From a virus, in IMG/VR virus record IMGVR_UViG_3300035674_000010, positions 1-29,479 of that record: a stretch of DNA of 29,479 bases, one strand, 5' to 3'. Below are positions 564 through 29,297 of this stretch, in pieces. A model generated the notes under the pieces. It searched no databases and had not been told where the DNA came from. It was given only the letters and a program-made list of their open reading frames with translations. A program made the translations under genes and the position numbers. The stretch's first letter is position 1. Each line of letters begins with the position of its first letter.

Positions 564-602
564 GAAGAAACCTGTACGCGGACAGAATAACGGAATCCAT
601 CC

Positions 603-631
603 TTGAAGTAAAGACGGAAACACGCTAAGAA
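603..631 (+). promoter_or_regulatory. Weak sigma-70-like promoter candidate
   Basis: TTGAAG (603-608) and TAAGAA (626-631) are 17 nt apart, in a stretch clearly richer in A and T than its surroundings, upstream of the GTG-initiated gene at 680. Each hexamer matches the consensus only in part. The -10 candidate overlaps the left arm of the palindrome at 626-651. Confidence 0.25.
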
Positions 632-651
632 GATTTGAAGGAATCTTCTTA
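626..651. promoter_or_regulatory. Operator-like palindrome in divergent control region
   Basis: TAAGAAGATT (626-635) and AATCTTCTTA (642-651) are a perfect 10-bp inverted repeat around a 6-nt centre (TGAAGG). It sits in the A/T-rich gap between the divergent genes at 563 (minus) and 680 (plus), where a repressor operator is expected. The neighbouring RHH protein is an obvious candidate ligand, by inference only. It has no trailing U-run, so I prefer operator over terminator. Confidence 0.5.
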
Positions 652-2684: not shown

Positions 2685-2806
2685 TACAATCGACCGATCG
2701 GGTAGCCGTCCCGCCGGCCAGCGGGGCGGCTCGCGCGGTGCCCCGGTCTCCCCGCCCGCACCTGCGGAGGGGCCGGGGCCCGCGGCCCGGTACCCAAGGT
2801 GCGAGC

Positions 2807-3622
2807 ATGCAATCGAACGGCAATAGCAAGTTCGGGGCCCGAAGCGGAGACGCGCGGAGGGAACCATCCGAGAGCAAGATCGGGCGGGTGGAGTTCCTGA
2901 TCGAAGTGTGTCGGAAGGTCGACGCCACCATACAACTCGCGGGGTCAACACAGTCGCGGATCGACGTCTTGGCAGACGCGAAGACGAACCTGGGTGCGTT
3001 GAGGAGCCGCCGGTTCTTGAAAACGATGGGTGATCTGGTCGACATCGAGTCGTTGGATTCCCTTGACCGCACCATCACGGCGGTGAAGAGTCAACTCTAC
3101 GAGACACTCGAAGAGGCCCGAGGCGAACTTCACCGGCACGGATTGGTGCTGGCGGCCGGCTTGGAATCCGTGGGGATAGATTCCGCTGGTCTCAGGCAAG
3201 CTTTGGTTTCTCCCAAATCGGAACGCATCCAAGGTCTGTACCCGGCCCTCCGTGCGATCCGCTGTGATCTCGACGTGGCGCACACGAAACATAGGCTTGA
3301 CGCCGGGGAACGCGACGCCGCCAAAGATCTCCCCCCGTGGCCGATCTACGGCAAGATGCTGAACGAGAAAAGACGGGCGGCAAGAGCGAAGAGCAGGCCC
3401 TTGACCGACAAGCAGGTGACCGCCCAACGTCTCATGGGGGAGTGCGACGGGAACATCACGGAGGCGGCCGCCCGCATGGGCTGCAAGCGCCAGACGTTTA
3501 TGGAGCACCTCGCCGCGGGGAATGCCAAGCTCGGGAAACTGGCCGTCAACCGGCCGAAGACGGAGCGGCTCCGGGAGGACCGCCGCGGGCAATTGAGTAC
3601 GTCGGAAGATCTCCGAACTTGA
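2807..3622 (+). CDS. Protein with C-terminal Fis-type helix-turn-helix
   Basis: A 271-aa protein. Near the C-terminus (about 205-236) it has a Fis/NtrC-type HTH pattern, GNITEAAARMGCKRQTFMEHL: helix, turn at MGC, recognition helix. The first 190 residues are mainly helical, with heptad-like stretches (IDSLDRTI-type region 80-110), and do not resemble a sigma-54 AAA domain. It is therefore not a classical NtrC activator but a small regulator or DNA-binding phage protein. The ATG at 2807 follows AAGGTG. Its codon use is less GC-biased than that of the neighbours (more A/T at third positions by eye), suggesting later acquisition. The palindrome and repeat region starts 30 bp after its stop, so it may bind there; this is inference. 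Confidence 0.65.
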   Translation: MQSNGNSKFGARSGDARREPSESKIGRVEFLIEVCRKVDATIQLAGSTQSRIDVLADAKTNLGALRSRRFLKTMGDLVDIESLDSLDRTITAVKSQLYETLEEARGELHRHGLVLAAGLESVGIDSAGLRQALVSPKSERIQGLYPALRAIRCDLDVAHTKHRLDAGERDAAKDLPPWPIYGKMLNEKRRAARAKSRPLTDKQVTAQRLMGECDGNITEAAARMGCKRQTFMEHLAAGNAKLGKLAVNRPKTERLREDRRGQLSTSEDLRT

Positions 3623-3651
3623 GTTCGTGCGCCGCCCGGGGCGCGTACCCG

Positions 3652-3663
3652 CCCATATATGGG
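3652..3663. promoter_or_regulatory. Perfect palindrome CCCATATATGGG
   Basis: A 12-bp perfect palindrome with an AT-only core, 30 bp after the HTH gene, at the entry of the gene-free interval 3623-3958. It has the look of a dimeric repressor site. A shorter TAGGG/CCCTA inverted pair lies further on (3705-3709 and 3720-3724). Confidence 0.4.
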
Positions 3664-3673
3664 GACAGATCAT

Positions 3674-3701
3674 CGCAGGGTCCGCAGGGATCTTCGCAGG
3701 G
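3674..3701. repeat. CGCAGGG iteron cluster (candidate operator or origin)
   Basis: Three direct copies of CGCAGGG start at 3674, 3683 and 3695, with an inverted copy CCCTGCG at 3795-3801. The shorter core CGCAG/CTGCG recurs at 3767, 3804 and 3825. The interval 3623-3958 holds no gene I can support. It is visibly richer in A and T (for example AAGAAAATTA at 3710-3719) than the flanks. It precedes the replication genes, which fits an iteron-type origin or early operator. A 14-codon ORF at 3732 (MKYAAKTGISVPQA) is present but has no good ribosome-binding site. Confidence 0.5.
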
Positions 3702-3800
3702 TGTTAGGGAAGAAAATTACCCTACATACGGAATGAAATACGCTGCAAAAACAGGGATTTCCGTGCCGCAGGCTTGAAACGGCATCGGTGTCAACCCTGC

Positions 3801-3832
3801 GATCTGCGGTAGGGATATGAGGACCGCAGATC
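3801..3832. repeat. 10-bp inverted repeat in the iteron interval
   Basis: GATCTGCGGT (3801-3810) and ACCGCAGATC (3823-3832) are perfectly complementary around a 12-nt centre (AGGGATATGAGG). Both arms contain the CTGCG/CGCAG core of the nearby iterons. It could be a cruciform, an operator or an RNA hairpin in the leader of the replication operon. Confidence 0.5.
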
Positions 3833-3958
3833 CGTCCCCCCAACTAAAGCGAGCATACAGGAGGCTCGCCTATTGGGCCGCCCGCGTCCGAGACCTTCAG
3901 AAAGCGGAGCGGCCCCCAATCCCACGAACATCCAAGTCTCAACGGCGGGAGGTGTCCC

Positions 3959-4336
3959 TTGCCTCCTGACCCCGCCCCCGCGCCCGCACGGAAGCGACCC
4001 TACGACGCGGCCCCGGTGTTGGCGGATATCGCTGACGGCCAACCCGGGTGGAGCATCAAGGAGGCGATCCGGCGGGACCTCCGGCTCAAGCGGGACGGCC
4101 GCGACATGGGGTTGGCAACCGTCCATCGCTGGATCGAGCACGGGGCGAGGGGACCGGACGGCGAGCGGGTGCGCCTCGGGGCCGCCCGAACGCCATCCGG
4201 GCTGGTTACCACCGCCGGCGCGATCGACCGGTTTTTCCGACAGCTGAACGGCCTCGACCTGCCGCCCGCGGGTGCCGCCCAGGCGAGGCGCGAGCACGAA
4301 GCGGCGCAGAGAGAACTGGACGCCGCCGGGCTCTGA
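3959..4336 (+). CDS. DUF1580-like DNA-binding protein (copy 2)
   Basis: A 125-aa paralogue of the protein at 1186. It has IKEAIRRDLRLKRDGRD followed by ATVHRWIEHGARG (HTH helix plus turn), VRLGAARTPSGLVTT (wing), AIDRFFRQLNGL, and the same ending (ELDAAGL). I take TTG 3959 as the start because GGGAGGT lies about 5 nt upstream and no ATG or GTG start near it preserves the domain. It opens the replication block, right after the iteron interval. That placement suggests an early regulator or an excisionase/initiator accessory, by inference. A different-frame TTG at 3873 also has AGGAGG upstream, but its product has no natural-looking composition. Confidence 0.65.
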   Translation: MPPDPAPAPARKRPYDAAPVLADIADGQPGWSIKEAIRRDLRLKRDGRDMGLATVHRWIEHGARGPDGERVRLGAARTPSGLVTTAGAIDRFFRQLNGLDLPPAGAAQARREHEAAQRELDAAGL

Positions 4337-4425
4337 TCCGGGTCCGTCCCGCGGCCAGAGACAACCTTTCGGCGAGCGGTGGCGAACCCGTAAAAGCCGT
4401 TCCTCGGCGGGGTGTTAATAACACA

Positions 4426-4644
4426 GTGGCACAGCGGCGGCGGAAAAACTCGTTGGTGCTGTCGCTGCTGGTCCCCGCCGACCTGCTGGCCGAGATCGGG
4501 GACGCCGTCGCCCGGCAGAACCGCAACACGCGGGGCGTCCCGCTCAACCGGTCCGCGTGGCTCCGCCGGGCGATCCGCTGGGAGTTAGACCGGGCGGCGC
4601 GGTCCCGGGCCAAGCGACGAAAGCGGATGCCACCAAACCCCTAA
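4426..4644 (+). CDS. Ribbon-helix-helix-like protein
   Basis: A 72-aa basic protein starting at GTG 4426. SLVLSLLVPADLLAEIGDAV is a strand followed by helix 1. After a loop containing NTRGVPLNRS comes SAWLRRAIRWELDRAA as helix 2. This is the RHH order found in small DNA-binding regulators, with an Arg/Lys-rich tail. The start is uncertain: the reading frame is open well upstream and the ribosome-binding site is weak (GGGG about 15 nt away). It lies between the DUF1580-like and winged-helix-like genes in the early block, so control of early genes or plasmid-like maintenance is plausible. Confidence 0.55.
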   Translation: MAQRRRKNSLVLSLLVPADLLAEIGDAVARQNRNTRGVPLNRSAWLRRAIRWELDRAARSRAKRRKRMPPNP

Positions 4645-4675
4645 CGCCGGCCGGACGGCCGGGAGAGGCGCGATC

Positions 4676-4996
4676 GTGGGCGACGAGAGCGAAAACGTGG
4701 GCGGGACGAAGGGCCGGGCGGGCAAGCCCCCGGGGCCCGTGGCCCTGGCCCGCATGGAGTCGATCCGCCGGGAGATCGCGCAATTCAAGGAGGGGCGGAC
4801 GCTCGAATCCCTGTGCGAGCTGCACCGGATGCACGGCGACAGGTCGTTCACCCCGGGCAAGATCGAGGCCGCCGTCGACCTGCTCGTAGAGCGGGGGCTC
4901 GCCGTCGTGACCGTGAGGCACCGCGGGGTCTTCGTCCGGTTGACCGATGCCGGCCTCGCGGCCGGGAACCCGACGGGGGAGGGCCCCGCACGGTGA
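4676..4996 (+). CDS. Small winged-helix-like protein upstream of primase
   Basis: A 106-aa protein beginning at GTG 4676 with GGGAGAGG upstream. The C-terminal half reads as a winged helix: helices around ARMESIRREIAQF and TLESLCELHRM, a recognition-like helix (TPGKIEAAVDLLVERG), then the strand-turn-strand wing (LAVVTVRHRGVFVRLT). No catalytic motif is seen. The TGA overlaps the primase GTG (GTGA), so it is translationally coupled to replication genes. It could be an initiator accessory or a regulator; the fold assignment is by eye. Confidence 0.6.
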   Translation: MGDESENVGGTKGRAGKPPGPVALARMESIRREIAQFKEGRTLESLCELHRMHGDRSFTPGKIEAAVDLLVERGLAVVTVRHRGVFVRLTDAGLAAGNPTGEGPAR

Positions 4997-6012
4997 CCGC
5001 CGCCGCACCCCCCACCGCCGACCCGTCCGCCTTCGACGCCATCCCGGCCGAGCTCCGGGAACGCCCGCAGTGGGTGGTGTGGCGGTCCGTCACCAAGGCC
5101 GGGGCGAGGAAGCCGACCAAGGTCCCGTTCGACGCCGTCACCGGCAGGCCCGCCGCCGTGAACGACCCCCGGACGTTCGCCACGTTCGGGCAGGCCCGGG
5201 CCGCATACGCCCGGGACCCGGGCCGGTGGGCGGGCATCGGTTACGTGTTCACGGCCGACGACCCGTACGTCGGGGTCGACCTGGACAACAGCCTCGACGC
5301 CCGGGGGCGGTTCCGGGCGTGGGCGGCGGCCGTGCTGCCGGGGATCGGCCCGACCTACGGGGAAATATCCCCGTCCTTCACGGGGGTGAAGTTCGTCGCC
5401 CGCGGCGCGCTGCCCGGGGACCGAAAGGGCGTCAACCGCAAGGGGTTCGGCCCCGACGGGACGGGCGGGATCGAGGTCTACGACCACGGGCGGTTCTTCG
5501 CCATGACCGGCCGGCGGCACCCCGTGTGCCCGGCCGCGATCGAGGACCGCGGCGACAACGTCGCGGAGCTCTACCTCCAGCTCCGCGAGCTGGACGACAA
5601 GCCGCCGGGGGAGTCGGGGGCGAAACCGCCGCGCCGCCCGACGCCGGCGGCCGGCGACCGCCGGGACGCGGTCCCGCGCGACCGGGAGTCGCGGGCCCTC
5701 GGGTACATCCTCAAGACCCCGGACGCGATCACCGGCCAGCGGGGGCACGACAAGGCCCTGCGGTGGGCGTGCGAGTGCCGGCGGTTCGGGCTCGACCGCG
5801 CCGCGTCCCGGCGGGTGATGCTGGCCGTGAACGACACCAAGACCGGCGGCGAGCCGTGGAACGAGCGGGAGATCGAACACAAGCTCGACAGCGCCGAGAC
5901 GCTCGTCACCGGGGCCGACTTCGGCAGCCGGCTCGGGGCGGGACGACCGCCGGGCGGCCCGTCCCGCCCGTCCCTCTACGTCGAGCCCCTGCGGTGGGAA
6001 GAGGTCGCATGA
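4993..6012 (+). CDS. Phage primase/polymerase (archaeo-eukaryotic primase type)
   Basis: A 339-aa protein typical of phage and plasmid primases of the NrS-1-like AEP group. The opening PAELRERPQWVVWR and KPTKVPFDA blocks are a family signature. The catalytic pair is VGVDLDN (D96, D98). SPSFTGVKF (126-134) fills the motif where classical AEPs have S-x-H, with lysine as is common in this branch. IEVYDHGRFFAMTGR (160-174) is motif III. The C-terminal part carries a PriCT-like region (ITGQRGHDKALRWA, then PWNEREIEHKLDSAE). It should make primers at the phage fork together with the helicase encoded next. The GTG start overlaps the previous stop; the TGA overlaps the helicase ATG. Confidence 0.88.
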   Translation: MTAAAPPTADPSAFDAIPAELRERPQWVVWRSVTKAGARKPTKVPFDAVTGRPAAVNDPRTFATFGQARAAYARDPGRWAGIGYVFTADDPYVGVDLDNSLDARGRFRAWAAAVLPGIGPTYGEISPSFTGVKFVARGALPGDRKGVNRKGFGPDGTGGIEVYDHGRFFAMTGRRHPVCPAAIEDRGDNVAELYLQLRELDDKPPGESGAKPPRRPTPAAGDRRDAVPRDRESRALGYILKTPDAITGQRGHDKALRWACECRRFGLDRAASRRVMLAVNDTKTGGEPWNEREIEHKLDSAETLVTGADFGSRLGAGRPPGGPSRPSLYVEPLRWEEVA

Positions 6013-8111
6013 AGCTTCACCCCCGGTGTATCGATAAACAGGGGCGGACCCGCCTCCTCGTCTCCGCGACCGGGGACGACGGCCAGCCCGTGGAACCGCG
6101 GGAGTTCGACCGGGACGGCATCCCGGACGCGGCCGCCCACTTCGCCGCGGCGGCCGGCGACCCGTCGTCCGCGGACGAATACGCCGCCCTGTTCGCCCGG
6201 CTGCTCGAGCAGGGCGAGGCCCTCGCCCGCGTGCGGCGGGGGGTGAGGGAGGCCGGGGAGAACGGGCGGCCCGCGACCGCGTTCGACCTGGTCCCGGACC
6301 TGGCCCGGCTGCCCGAGGCCGAGTGCGCGAAGGCGAAGGCGGAGCTCAGGGCGGCGATCGGCAGGGCGCTGAACCTGAACGACCTGGCCCGGGCCATCGC
6401 CGACTTCCGGGAACGGGCCCGCCGGGACCTGATCGCCGACCGGACGGCGCGCGGGCCGGACGGGCGGCTCCGCGTGTGCGTGACCGGCCGGCAGTTGCGG
6501 GACGTCTCGGACGACGCCCTCCGCGCGACGGCCGACCGGAACGACCCGCCCGCCCTGTTCGTCCGGTCCGGCGACCTGGTCCGGCTCAAGGTCGACGAGC
6601 AGGGCCGGCGCTCGGTCGCCCCGGTCACCGAGGCCGGGCTCCGCGGGCGGCTGGAGCGGTCGGCCGACTTCTTCGCGATCAAGAAGGACGGCCGGGAGGC
6701 GATCGTCCCGCCCCCGCTGGAGGTGTGCCGCGACCTGCTCGCGCTCAACGTGAACGACGAGATGGGCCGCCTGGGCTTGCCCGCACTGCCGCCGCTGGCG
6801 GGCGTCGTCGAGTCGCCCGTCGTCCGCCCGGACGGGACGATCCTGGCCCGCCCGGGTTACGACCGGGCGACGCGGCTGTACTACGCCCCCGACCCCGCGC
6901 TCCTCGGCGTGCGGGTGCCCGACCGGCCGACCGGGCGGGAGACGGCGGCCGCGGCGGCGCTGGTCGGCGAGATGATCGTCGACTTCCCGTTCGTCGACGA
7001 CGCCAGCCGGGCGAACCTGTGGGCCTACCTCCTCACCCTGTTCGCCCGCCCCGCCGTGGCCGGCAAGGTCCCGCTCGCCCTGTTCGACAAGCCGTCGCCG
7101 GGCACCGGCGGGTCGCTGCTCGCCGAGGCCGTGGTGACGCTCGCCACCGGGCGGGACGTGGCGTTCCACGGGGCCCCGCGGGACGAGGAGGAGTGGCGGA
7201 AGCTCATCACGACGATCCTGCTGACCGGGGCCGCCACGGCGGTGATCGACAACGTGGAACACGTCCTGGAGTCCGACGCGCTCGCCCGGGTGATCACCTG
7301 CGCCGAGTGGGGCGACCGGGTGCTCGGCGAGAGCAGGGGTGTCCGGCTCCCGGCCCGCGCGGTCTGGGCGGCGACGGGGAACAACCTCACGCTCGGCCGC
7401 AACATCGCCCGCCGGTGTTACCAGATCCGGATCGACGCCCGGATGCCCCAGCCCTTCAAGCGGACCGAGTTCCTCCACCCCGAGCTGCTCGCCTGGGTGA
7501 CGGAGAACCGCCCCCGCCTCGTGGCCGCCGCCCTGACCGTCTGCCGGGCGTGGTTCGCCGCCGGCCGCCCGCCGGCCGGCACCCCGGCGATGGGGACGTT
7601 CGAGGAGTGGAGCCGGACCATCGGCGGCATCCTCGCCCACGCCGGCATACCCGGGTTCCTGGGGAACCTCGACCACACGCACGCCGAATCCGACGAGGAG
7701 ACGGCCCCGTGGGAGGCGTTCCTGACCGCCTGGGAGGCCGAGTACGGGCCGAACCCGGTCACCGTCGGCCAGATCGAGAGGGACCTGGCCACCCGTCCCC
7801 GCCTGCGCGACACGCTCCCCGGCGAACTGTCCGTGTTCGTCCAGCGCGAGCCGTCGCGATACGTGACCCCCGAGACGATCCGGGTTGACGCACGCTTCAA
7901 GATCAAGCTCGGGCTGGCTTTGAAGAAGCGGGCCGGGATGCAGTTCGGCGAGGGGATACGCATCGAGCGGGCGGGAGACGACGCTCACAGCAAAGTATCG
8001 TTATGGCGAGTCGTGCGGGGAGTGCGGGTAGTGCGGGGAGTGTCTGAACCCCCTACGTGGGAAGAAGACCCCCTCTATCAACAACAGGGGGGGGCGCATC
8101 AAAGCGCATAG
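6009..8111 (+). CDS. Phage/plasmid AAA-type replicative helicase, degenerate P-loop
   Basis: A 700-aa protein, coupled to the primase by ATGA. The central and C-terminal half is a phage/plasmid helicase-like ATPase. A P-loop region (PSPGTGGSLLAEAV, about 363-376), a Walker-B-like strand (AAVIDNVEHV, about 408-416), an AEWGDRVLGES block, the sensor WAATGNN (about 453-459) and arginines in IARRCYQIRID (about 464-474) occur in the expected order. The usual P-loop lysine is replaced by glycine (G368). The N-terminal 250 residues are less conserved. The last 30 residues contain V-R-G-V repeats encoded by a 9-bp tandem repeat, so this tail may be dictated by the DNA element rather than by protein function. 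Role: fork unwinding, inferred from family and neighbour. Confidence 0.82.
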   Translation: MKLHPRCIDKQGRTRLLVSATGDDGQPVEPREFDRDGIPDAAAHFAAAAGDPSSADEYAALFARLLEQGEALARVRRGVREAGENGRPATAFDLVPDLARLPEAECAKAKAELRAAIGRALNLNDLARAIADFRERARRDLIADRTARGPDGRLRVCVTGRQLRDVSDDALRATADRNDPPALFVRSGDLVRLKVDEQGRRSVAPVTEAGLRGRLERSADFFAIKKDGREAIVPPPLEVCRDLLALNVNDEMGRLGLPALPPLAGVVESPVVRPDGTILARPGYDRATRLYYAPDPALLGVRVPDRPTGRETAAAAALVGEMIVDFPFVDDASRANLWAYLLTLFARPAVAGKVPLALFDKPSPGTGGSLLAEAVVTLATGRDVAFHGAPRDEEEWRKLITTILLTGAATAVIDNVEHVLESDALARVITCAEWGDRVLGESRGVRLPARAVWAATGNNLTLGRNIARRCYQIRIDARMPQPFKRTEFLHPELLAWVTENRPRLVAAALTVCRAWFAAGRPPAGTPAMGTFEEWSRTIGGILAHAGIPGFLGNLDHTHAESDEETAPWEAFLTAWEAEYGPNPVTVGQIERDLATRPRLRDTLPGELSVFVQREPSRYVTPETIRVDARFKIKLGLALKKRAGMQFGEGIRIERAGDDAHSKVSLWRVVRGVRVVRGVSEPPTWEEDPLYQQQGGAHQSA

Positions 8112-8149
8112 GAGGGGCGAACCCCCCGCTACTCCCCGCACTCCCCGCA
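8013..8149. repeat. Inverted iteron cluster at the end of the helicase gene
   Basis: Three tandem 9-mers GTGCGGGGA/GTGCGGGTA/GTGCGGGGA (8013-8039) are mirrored in inverted orientation by ACTCCCCGCACTCCCCGCA (8131-8149). The longest perfect inverted match is TGCGGGGAGTGCGGG (8014-8028) against 8135-8149. The roughly 100 nt between contains further small inverted pairs (CCCCCT/AGGGGG, GCGC/GCGC, GGGG-CGAA-CCCC). It spans the helicase stop at 8111. A replication origin, a termination structure or an RNA regulatory element are all possible. Confidence 0.6.
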
Positions 8150-8170
8150 AGCCCGACCCGGAGAACGGCA

Positions 8171-8467
8171 ATGGCCCAAAGCCCGGCGAACGACGCGGAC
8201 CCGACCGGCCGCCCCGACTGGCGGTTCGACTTCGTCCCCGGCGGGGACGAGCCGGCGGCCGAGCGGCTGGCCGACGTCATCCGCTGTGCCGAGCGGCACG
8301 GGATCACGGTCAAGGCCCTCGCCGTCGTGCTCGACCCCGGCGGGGGGAACGGCGTCCCGGACGCGATCGTGATGCGGAACTTCCTCAAGCGGGTCGGCCG
8401 GGACTGGAACGTGAGGGCCCGGTGGCCGGAGCCGGGCGGCGGCGTGATGTCCGACAAGGGGGTTTGA
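8171..8467 (+). CDS. Unrecognised small protein
   Basis: A 98-aa protein beginning at ATG 8171 with GGAGA 7 nt upstream. I do not recognise it. The middle shows two helices (EPAAERLADVIRCAERHG and ITVKALAVVLD), and the ITVKALA stretch could open an HTH, but no convincing recognition helix follows. The end is Gly/Trp-rich (WPEPGGGVMSDKGV). It lies just after the inverted iteron cluster and before another small gene, in the same orientation as the replication genes. Origin-linked accessory function is possible but not shown. Confidence 0.55.
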   Translation: MAQSPANDADPTGRPDWRFDFVPGGDEPAAERLADVIRCAERHGITVKALAVVLDPGGGNGVPDAIVMRNFLKRVGRDWNVRARWPEPGGGVMSDKGV

Positions 8468-17163: not shown

Positions 17164-17505
17164 ATGGCCCGACACGACTACCTGACCGGCGTCCGCCGCG
17201 TGCTCAACTCGGCCAAGGTGCAGTTCACCGCGGTCGGCGGGGCCGCCGCGTACGTCGCCGCCCGGTTCGCCGCCCCGACGATCCCGCCGGACCAGCGGGC
17301 GTGGCTGTGGCTCGGGTTCCTCGGCGCGCTGGCCGTCATGGTCCGCGAGGTGGTCAACGCATGGGCGGCCGAGGACGTGGCCGCGAAGTCGCAGGCCGCC
17401 CCGCCGGCCGTCCAGGTCAACACCGGGTCGGACGCCGCGAACGTCCAGCAGGCGACGCCCCCGCCGTCACCCCCCACCGCCGGCAACGCCGGGACGGGGG
17501 GATAA
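17164..17505 (+). CDS. Small two-TM protein (holin-like)
   Basis: A 113-aa protein with two hydrophobic segments: about 18-38 (VQFTAVGGAAAYVAARFAA) and 46-63 (AWLWLGFLGALAVMV), joined by a short TIPPDQR turn. A polar tail rich in Pro, Ala and Gln follows. Two short membrane segments, small size and a position among other membrane genes fit a holin, but holins share no sequence signature and there is no endolysin beside it. GAGG precedes ATG 17164. Confidence 0.55.
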   Translation: MARHDYLTGVRRVLNSAKVQFTAVGGAAAYVAARFAAPTIPPDQRAWLWLGFLGALAVMVREVVNAWAAEDVAAKSQAAPPAVQVNTGSDAANVQQATPPPSPPTAGNAGTGG

Positions 17506-25100: not shown

Positions 25101-27026
25101 ATGGCGACGGACATCTCAAAACTGGCCGTGCTGCTGACCGCGAACGCGGCCGGGTTCTCGGCCGGGCTCCGGACGGCCGCCCGCGGGGTCGACGGGTTCG
25201 CCGCCCACGTCGAGGGGACCGCGTCCCGGATCGGCGGGTTCCTCGCGTCGGCCGCCGCGCTCGGGGGCGGGATCGCCGCCGGGGCGTCCATCGGGCGGGG
25301 CGTCGTCGACTTCGAGCAGGCGATGGCCGACATGCGGGCGGCCGCCAACCCGACCGCCGACCAGGTCGTCGCGCTCGAACGGAGCATCCTCGACCTGAGC
25401 CGGGCGGCCGGGGTCGGCCCGTCCGACGTCGCGACCGCGTTCACCGAGCTGCTCAAGGCCGGCATGTCGGCCGAGCGGGTGATGGGCGGGGCCGGGGCGG
25501 CGGCCGTCCGGTTCGCCCGGGTCGGCCAGATCGACGTCGCCCAGGCCGCGACGGTGATGAACGACGCGCTCAACGTGTTCGCCCGCGAGGGGCTGACCGC
25601 GACCCGGGTCGTCGACACGCTGTCCAAGGCGGCCGACGCGAGCAGCATCAGCATCCACCAGATCACCGAGGCGTTCGCCATGTCGTCGGCCGTGTTCGGG
25701 ACGGCCGGGCTGACGCTCCAGGACCTGACGACCGCGATCGGCATCCTCGGCAACGCCGGGGTCAAGGGGTCGGACGCCGGCACGTCGCTCAAGACGATGC
25801 TCCTGCGGCTGTCCGCCCCGTCGGCCGAGGGGGCGACGGCGATGCGCCGGCTCGGGCTGAGCGTCCGGGACGCGGCCGGGCACATGCGGCCGATGCGGGA
25901 CATCGTCGGGCAGCTCCAGGCGCGGCTGGCCGCGCTCGACCCGGTCGCCCGGGACGCCGCCCTGAAGACGATCTTCGGGGACGACGCGATCCGGGCCGCG
26001 TCGATCCTGTCGACCCAGGGGGTGGCCGGGTGGGACGCCTTCACCGGCAAGCTGCGGGAGTCGCTGAGCGTCGCCCAGAAGTACGGGCAGCAGCAGGCGA
26101 CGTTCCGCGGGGGCTTCGCCGCGACCGGGGCGGCGCTCGAACGGTTCGGGATCGCGCTCGGCGGGCTCGTCAACCAGCCGCTCGCCCGGATGCTCGACGT
26201 GTCCGGCCGGGTGGTCGAGGCCGTGACCCGGTGGACGCGGGAGAACGGCGAGCAGATCAAGACCGTGCTCAAGTGGACGGCCGCCATCGGCGGGGCGATC
26301 TTCGTCGTCAACCGGTTCGTCAAGATCGGCACGTCCATCGTGATGATGTACAAGGCGATCACCAAGTCCCAGATCGCCACGCTCGCGTTCTCCGGCCCGA
26401 AGGGGTGGGCCGCCATCGCGGCCGGGGCCGGGATCACGGCCGCGTCCGTGTACGGGTTGAACCAGCTGTTCGAGCGGCTCGGGAACGAGATGGACCGGGC
26501 CGTCGTCCAGGCCGACCAGGTGGCCGACGCCCACCGGACCGCGGCCGACGCGACGAAGGACGTCGGGGCCGCCGCCGCCGCCGCGGCCGGCCAGCAGGCG
26601 GGGCTCTCGACGGCGATCGGGGACGTGATCCGCAAGCTGGAGGAACAGGTCGTCACGTTCGGGCTATCCCAGCGGGAGGCCGACCTGTGGACGCTCGCCC
26701 AGGAGGGCGCGACGGACGACCAGATCGGGCACGCCCGGGCGCTGGTCGACATGCTCGACGCGATGGAGGCGAAGCAGCGGGCGACCGAGCGGGCCGACCG
26801 GGACCGGAAGAAGGACGCGCCGCGGGCGCCGAAGACCTTCGGCGCCGAGAAGCTGACCGCCCTGGAGCGGCGGTTCACGGCCGGGTTCACGGCCGAGGCG
26901 ATGGGCCCGTTCGACAAGCTGCTGAAAGAGGAACAGCGGTCGGCCAAGGCGAACGAGCGGACGGCCCGGAACACCGACCGCATCGCCCGGGACCGCACCC
27001 GTGACGAGGTGGTGAGGATCGCGTGA
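25101..27026 (+). CDS. Tape measure protein
   Basis: A 641-aa tape measure protein. SKLAVLLTANAAGFSAGLRT starts the usual N-terminal helix. A TP901-type core follows: FEQAMADMRAAANPTADQV, LAAGVGPSDVA-like helices, SISIHQITEAF, VFGTAGLTLQDLTTAIGIL and GVKGSDAGTSLKTML, the last being highly typical. Hydrophobic segments lie at about 43-65 and 385-445; the C-terminus is Lys/Arg/Glu-rich coil. It sets tail length and is ejected with DNA. By the usual rule of about 1.5 angstrom per residue, the tail would be near 95 nm; this is an estimate. It starts 3 nt after the chaperone stop. Confidence 0.92.
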   Translation: MATDISKLAVLLTANAAGFSAGLRTAARGVDGFAAHVEGTASRIGGFLASAAALGGGIAAGASIGRGVVDFEQAMADMRAAANPTADQVVALERSILDLSRAAGVGPSDVATAFTELLKAGMSAERVMGGAGAAAVRFARVGQIDVAQAATVMNDALNVFAREGLTATRVVDTLSKAADASSISIHQITEAFAMSSAVFGTAGLTLQDLTTAIGILGNAGVKGSDAGTSLKTMLLRLSAPSAEGATAMRRLGLSVRDAAGHMRPMRDIVGQLQARLAALDPVARDAALKTIFGDDAIRAASILSTQGVAGWDAFTGKLRESLSVAQKYGQQQATFRGGFAATGAALERFGIALGGLVNQPLARMLDVSGRVVEAVTRWTRENGEQIKTVLKWTAAIGGAIFVVNRFVKIGTSIVMMYKAITKSQIATLAFSGPKGWAAIAAGAGITAASVYGLNQLFERLGNEMDRAVVQADQVADAHRTAADATKDVGAAAAAAAGQQAGLSTAIGDVIRKLEEQVVTFGLSQREADLWTLAQEGATDDQIGHARALVDMLDAMEAKQRATERADRDRKKDAPRAPKTFGAEKLTALERRFTAGFTAEAMGPFDKLLKEEQRSAKANERTARNTDRIARDRTRDEVVRIA

Positions 27027-28689: not shown

Positions 28690-29297
28690 TGGCCAGCGGC
28701 GACGTGATGTTGGACGCGAGCGGCAACGTCATCCTCGACGCCCTGGGGAACGTGTTGCTCGACGACGGGGCCGGGAACGGCTGCTGCTGCGCCCCGCCCC
28801 CGCCCTGCGCGGCCGACTGCCCGGACGGCGGGCCGGCCGCGTACACGGTCACGCTCACCGGCGTGAGCGTCATGTCCGGCTGTTTCGCCTGCACGGGCGG
28901 GGCCACCGGATACCTCTACTGCGACGCGACGATCAACGGGACGTTCACGCTCGACACGTACGAGGACACGCAGTCGTTCTGCGGGTGGTCGACGACGTTC
29001 CCGCTGGACGTCCGCCGGCACTTCTCGCCGGCGACCGACTGCTCGGGGACGCCGAGCCTCGCGTACACGTTCGGGCGGGTCGTGCTCGAACGGCTCCGCG
29101 GGTCGAGCGACAACTTTAACTTGCGGGTCGAGGTGTCGATCGGGTGGCTTTTCTTCCGCGATACCCAGGCGTCCGTGAACTGCCGGAGCGGGCTGCCGAC
29201 GTTCACGAACGACCAGGTCGGCGCGCCCGCCTGTTCGGGCGGGCTGAACGGCCCCCGGCTGGGGTCGGGCGGGACCGCGACCGTCTCGCCCGCGTGA
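28689..29297 (+). CDS. Cys-rich tail-end protein with CCC cluster
   Basis: A 202-aa protein. The start repeats a D-x-x-GNVxLD unit (LDASGNVILDALGNVLLDD). NGCCCAPPPPCAADC follows with five Cys in 14 residues, and further Cys-x-x-Cys sites appear (GCFACTG). The rest is strand-rich and carries more Cys (YLYCDATINGTF, SFCGWSTTF, DCSGTPS, VNCRSGLP, PACSGG), so it is a disulphide- or metal-stabilised beta protein. It overlaps genes on both sides (TGATG and GTGA). A virion tail component exposed outside the cell is plausible; function unknown. Confidence 0.6.
   Translation: MASGDVMLDASGNVILDALGNVLLDDGAGNGCCCAPPPPCAADCPDGGPAAYTVTLTGVSVMSGCFACTGGATGYLYCDATINGTFTLDTYEDTQSFCGWSTTFPLDVRRHFSPATDCSGTPSLAYTFGRVVLERLRGSSDNFNLRVEVSIGWLFFRDTQASVNCRSGLPTFTNDQVGAPACSGGLNGPRLGSGGTATVSPA

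Follow-up and report, generated by a model that had tools for sequence, protein, structure and literature searches.

Which part of this viral genome starts replication, and what is the purpose of the repeat-rich, gene-free region that precedes the replication genes (region A, Table 1)? The earlier note had read this region as a candidate "origin or master operator". The DNA that was analysed, called the window in the following, comprises the 29,479 bases of a virus record and contains terminase, portal, protease, capsid and tape-measure genes. As claimed before, region A lies ahead of a replication operon: the operon begins at 3959 and encodes, in this order, a DUF1580-like protein (3959), a small protein (4426), another one (4676), a primase (4993) and a helicase (6009). 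For the product of the gene on the other side of region A (2807-3622) we found no helicase match. The phage carries two paralogues of the DUF1580 family (1186-1521 and 3959-4336), which are 44% identical over their alignment; from the association of this family with planctomycetes, we take the latter to be the likely hosts.

Table 1. Coordinates of the genes and sequence elements discussed in the text (strand: + or -; a dot marks features without a strand)
Feature	Position in window	Strand	Description
Gene upstream of region A	2807..3622	+	C-terminal helix-turn-helix at weak scores only
Region A	3652..3832	.	Gene-free AT-rich repeat region preceding the replication operon; probable operator/promoter region
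Perfect palindrome CCCATATATGGG	3652..3663	.	In region A
Three direct repeats (GATCA)TCGCAGGGT / CCGCAGGGA / (GATCT)TCGCAGGGT	3668..3702	+	Steps of 9 and 12 bp
Most AT-rich 40-mer of the window	3701..3740	.	35% GC; within region A
Inverted copy of ATCGCAGGGT (ACCCTGCGAT)	3794..3803	-	In region A
Hairpin/dyad GATCTGCGGT-N12-ACCGCAGATC	3801..3832	.	In region A; not followed by a T run
First gene after region A	3959..4336	+	DUF1580-like; putative winged-helix DNA-binding protein
Primase	4993..6012	+	PHROG 13901, 1829
D5/SaPI-type primase-helicase	6009..8111	+	Predicted initiator
Region B	8006..8149	.	Predicted replication origin; overlaps the helicase gene at its 3' end
Left array of region B, GTGCGGGGA / GTGCGGGTA / GTGCGGGGA	8013..8041	+	9-bp period; inside the helicase reading frame
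Right array of region B, ACTCCCCGC x2	8131..8149	-	Inverted

Repeats and composition of region A

All elements named in the earlier note are present base for base: CGCAGGG occurs three times in direct orientation (3674, 3683 and 3695) and once inverted (3795-3801), TAGGG (3705) and CCCTA (3720) flank an A-rich centre, and GATCTGCGGT (3801-3810) is paired with its inverted partner ACCGCAGATC (3823-3832). The CGCAG core, previously estimated at about seven copies, is found exactly seven times in region A (five on the plus and two on the minus strand). A better description of the repeat unit is GATCWTCGCAGGGT, which is present twice, 21 bp apart; an alternative is YAGGGW, with copies at 3676, 3685, 3697 and 3705 (steps of 9, 12 and 8 bp). 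The most AT-rich 40-mer (3701-3740) contains TAGGGA (3705) and the inverted ACCCTA (3719). Perfect palindromes of at least 12 bp occur 13 times in the window, so that the 12-bp palindrome of region A is unremarkable alone. The absence of genes is borne out by the GC content at the three codon positions of the interval 3623-3958 (0.60/0.61/0.59; 60% GC overall), which shows no bias, whereas the flanking genes show a clear pattern. The description as more A/T-rich holds as well, with 53% GC in region A compared to 72% in the window. A second very AT-rich stretch of the window (584-651) includes the hairpin TAAGAAGATTTGAAGGAATCTTCTTA and has a minus-strand ORF (357-578) on one side and a GIY-YIG-like gene (680) on the other; it may be a divergent promoter.

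The repeats of region A are beyond chance. A 7-mer with four copies in 181 bp was obtained in 8 of 2000 dinucleotide shuffles, and the 7-mer pair score of region A (z 6.3) ranks third among 586 overlapping 200-bp windows of a repeat scan. YAGGGW occurs eight times within the 181 bp of region A (24 times in the whole window), a number reached in none of 2000 shuffles, where the maximum was four; this figure is optimistic, as the unit was picked post hoc, after inspection. Further copies of CGCAGGG in the window are single and scattered, and the word "master" in the earlier description thus finds no support. A blastn search returned no relatives of region A in phages or in the fetched loci of relatives, and the matches to two collection patterns for region A look like chance or coding tandem repeats. 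No tRNA was detected, and no sigma-70-like promoter between 3300 and 5100; the latter result speaks against a promoter in region A. Close to the end of the window (28695-28741) there is a coding repeat with a 24-bp period (..ASGNVILDALGNVLLD..).

Opposed iterons at the 3' end of the helicase gene

The strongest repeat array of the window falls into the scan interval 7951-8200 (z 9.7) and constitutes region B. Its 9-bp units form a direct arm of three and an inverted arm of two, which are separated by 89 bp. The left arm is helicase coding sequence (..LWRVVRGVRVVRGVS..) and ends 70 bp before the stop codon at 8111; the right arm starts 20 bp after it. The spacer is only moderately AT-rich (63% GC versus 72% in the window), and the single-strand folding of region B reaches a z of -4.5. 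Its unit, TGCGGGGA, differs from the CGCAGGGT of region A, and neither occurs in the other region.

For comparison, helicase homologues were gathered from contigs of viruses and of genomes and from a sample of 400 genomes. In a uniform test, an inverted-repeat score of 14 was reached by 21 of 37 helicase ends (loci that are not fully independent, as e.g. L188 and L179 stem from the same place), compared to 4 of 159 control stretches. The array-bearing ends belong to phages, to genomes labelled Chloroflexi, Acidobacteriales, Hyphomicrobiales and Synergistaceae, and to one archaeal virus. In these relatives, opposed short-period arrays are located at or near the helicase stop codon, with a unit that varies between most groups (e.g. 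ACGTTCAC, AAACCGAC, ACATTCAC, CCTCACCA and CACCCCC) and is shared by the sub-arrays within each relative. The GC content of the spacer is below that of the locus in 13 of 15 relatives. A covariance model built from nine relatives, with the window excluded, finds 8006-8149 at an E-value of 5.1e-7, and also the elements of L005, L003, L002, L009, L015, L016 and the archaeal virus vir525. Likewise, the alignment of region B to the elements of the nine relatives was matched by none of 500 shuffles. As to further features of these loci, a palindrome with 30-bp arms precedes the replication operon of L005, which favours the operator reading of region A, and the helicase homologue of L007 is fused to a Prim-Pol domain. 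In vir525 (L192, 2990-3340) many TTGCGGGTATT units are found in both orientations past the helicase stop codon; they carry a TGCGGG core, as in the window.

Taken alone, region B is the likely origin of this phage. We propose that the D5/SaPI-type helicase encoded by the operon would bind the two opposed sets of 9-bp units, then melt the spacer between them and load there. The predicted origin is hereby moved from 3.7 kb to 8.1 kb. For phages with this D5/SaPI-type helicase a simple rule is suggested: the 3' end of its gene is the place to look for iteron arrays of 9-bp units in opposed orientation. The rule held in most of the relatives tested (several bacterial phyla and one archaeal virus).

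The same comparisons speak against the origin claimed for region A. The origin-type element of this family is the one at the helicase 3' end (8006-8149), and region A is unlike such elements: the covariance model yields only 8.6 bits for it, nothing convincing, and 290 of 500 shuffles align as well as region A does to the elements of the nine relatives plus region B. Moreover, none of the relatives with enough upstream sequence has an array of its own iteron before the replication operon. An apparent similarity of region A to the loops of relatives, based on the A-rich GAAGAAAATT in its loop and on a REEN-like reading of the ORF 3337-3777, would have made it a copy of the origin element; this idea was dropped, as the alignment scores did not exceed those of shuffles.

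Candidate roles of region A

The most probable role of region A is that of an operator/promoter region for the operon that begins at 3959; of the two halves of the earlier proposal, the operator is thus favoured and the origin is not. As a transcriptional control region, it would be contacted by a small winged-helix regulator that binds the repeats side by side, about one DNA turn apart. Most likely, the operon would be turned on or off in this way by its own first product, the DUF1580-like protein encoded at 3959. The best clue comes from the position of such repeats in one relative, the phage G001 (L026), whose capsid protein is 65% identical. This phage has a DUF1580 homologue at 5499, but its replication module is of another kind and includes a DnaC-like loader. 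We scanned for exact 6-mers present three times with steps of 8-12 bp. The first 19 kb of L026 contain one such triple only (GCTACA at 5187-5214, steps of 11 and 11 bp), upstream of the DUF1580 homologue; it is found in the gap before the two-gene stretch that holds this homologue, with another putative HTH gene intervening. The window has such triples at only four places, namely in region A, in each arm of region B and at 17244. In these two phages, helically spaced direct repeats thus accompany the DUF1580 gene rather than the type of initiator. L026 also contains repeats of a 23-bp period (GGGTACGCNCAGCG) inside a putative initiator gene (6755-6930), followed by the gene for the DnaC-like loader in a lambda-O-like arrangement, and an array of hairpin-like repeats of roughly 23-24 bp (3304-3460) ahead of the gene 3483-5174.

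A low-confidence model of the 3959 product (pLDDT 70) weakly matches BldC (6ama; Z 3.7, rmsd 2.6, 54 residues), a likeness that we regard as a weak lead. Foldseek gave no match for this product at an E-value of 0.001, protein searches with the 3959 and 2807 products returned no close relatives, and a DUF1580 alignment search returned only the record already known. With region A as the operator of the replication operon and region B as the origin, we infer protein binding, promoter activity and origin activity; as a whole, we consider this account reasonably probable. It would give the uncharacterised DUF1580-like family a candidate role as a DNA-binding regulator.

Region A is also origin-like, as it combines the most AT-rich DNA of the window with direct repeats and one inverted copy. 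Hence the phage helicase might bind it as an origin, either the only one or one of two together with region B, and both its location ahead of the replication operon and the spacing of its three direct and one inverted copies, which is like that in region B, would suit this role. However, regions A and B have different units, whereas each relative uses a single unit in its sub-arrays; neither sequence nor model comparison links region A to the elements of the family; the relatives with enough upstream sequence lack an array of their iteron there; and DnaA boxes are at chance level, with no DnaA-box-like site in region A. We therefore consider an origin bound by the helicase unlikely here. It is quite unlikely, too, that two functional but unrelated initiation sites flank the operon, with the helicase acting at region B and a filament of the DUF1580-like protein opening the AT-rich tract of region A while controlling the operon; if true, such a dual site would couple the start of replication to the lysogeny switch.

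A structured RNA leader or small RNA controlling the operon would be consistent with the folding of region A (z of -2.0 on the plus and -2.8 on the minus strand) and with its hairpin at 3801-3832, whose distance to the start codon at 3959 is 126 bp, but the same repeats account for the fold on both strands, and there is no Rfam match and no terminator-like site, which makes an RNA function very unlikely. Little more can be said for an inserted or left-over element, which might be MITE-like or an orphan origin whose replication module has been replaced. Its termini, which form imperfect inverted repeats (GGGGACAGATC/GATCCGTCCCC at 3661-3671/3829-3839), and the low GC content across 2750-4000 point in this direction; with no second copy within the virus record and an alignment to origin elements no better than that of shuffles, we judge it highly improbable. 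Least probable of all appears an excisionase-like use of the same winged-helix protein, i.e. region A bound by a recombination directionality factor. Winged-helix factors of this type form oligomers on DNA and can also occupy the promoter of their own gene (PMC11963761), but the partial integrase-like gene (1-229; read from the sequence, without a profile match) lies 3.4 kb off and no attachment site was seen near region A. The preferred reading, an operator of the replication operon, may have its closest counterpart in the BldC/Xis-type systems.

Comparison with known operators and origins

BldC binds head-to-tail on direct repeats, and its sites contain 9-bp direct repeats (PMC5859096). Region A is like BldC/Xis-type operators, the sites of MerR-like winged-helix proteins, in that its direct repeats are about one DNA turn apart (steps of 9, 12 and 8 bp) and lie beside the gene of a small putative winged-helix protein; it differs in the unit, which is the GC-containing YAGGGW compared to the BldC consensus AATTNNNN(C). 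In lambda-O-type origins the iterons are found inside the initiator gene, whereas region A is gene-free. Phage P4 has two repeat regions, ori and crr, and its alpha protein recognises the same iteron at both. Regions A and B resemble this pair as two repeat regions flanking replication genes, but their units differ.

Region B, in turn, fits the kind of origin known from SaPI/PICI elements and pRN1. The best solved match to the AlphaFold model of the helicase (pLDDT 82) is the SaPI5 primase-helicase (7ola; Z 13.7, rmsd 6.1, 324 residues aligned), tied with the vaccinia/mpox (poxvirus) D5 protein (Z 13.6). The origin of pRN1 includes an inverted repeat 3' of the prim-pol helicase gene that is needed for replication (21-nt stem, 58-nt loop), and the Bordetella phage BIP-1 has a stem-loop downstream of its prim-pol helicase (PMC4234260). 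Both are like region B in placing an inverted repeat downstream of a primase-helicase gene, but they were described as stem-loops without iterons (PMC4234260). In BIP-1 we observed an inverted array with a 9-bp period (TTGCCTCGTTTGCCTCGTTT) at 26607-26710 (L191 108-211), about 470 bp past the end of the rep gene; this array and the loop drawn by the authors may be different elements.

The origins of SaPIs and other PICIs directly follow the 3' end of rep and have an AT-rich region flanked by two iteron sets (PMC6092414, PMC7581432), an organisation described as unique to PICIs (PMC6092414). The helicase gene starts 2.2 kb downstream of region A, which does not resemble the elements of the helicase relatives. 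Region B shares with the SaPI/PICI origins the 3' position, a spacer flanked by two sets of short iterons in opposed orientation, and the adjoining 3' end of a SaPI/D5-type helicase gene; unlike in these origins, its left iterons overlap the helicase coding sequence. SaPIs and PICIs are satellites, whereas region B is part of the genome of a tailed phage with its own terminase, portal and tail genes. Thus an origin layout that has been described as specific to satellite islands occurs here in a tailed-phage genome.
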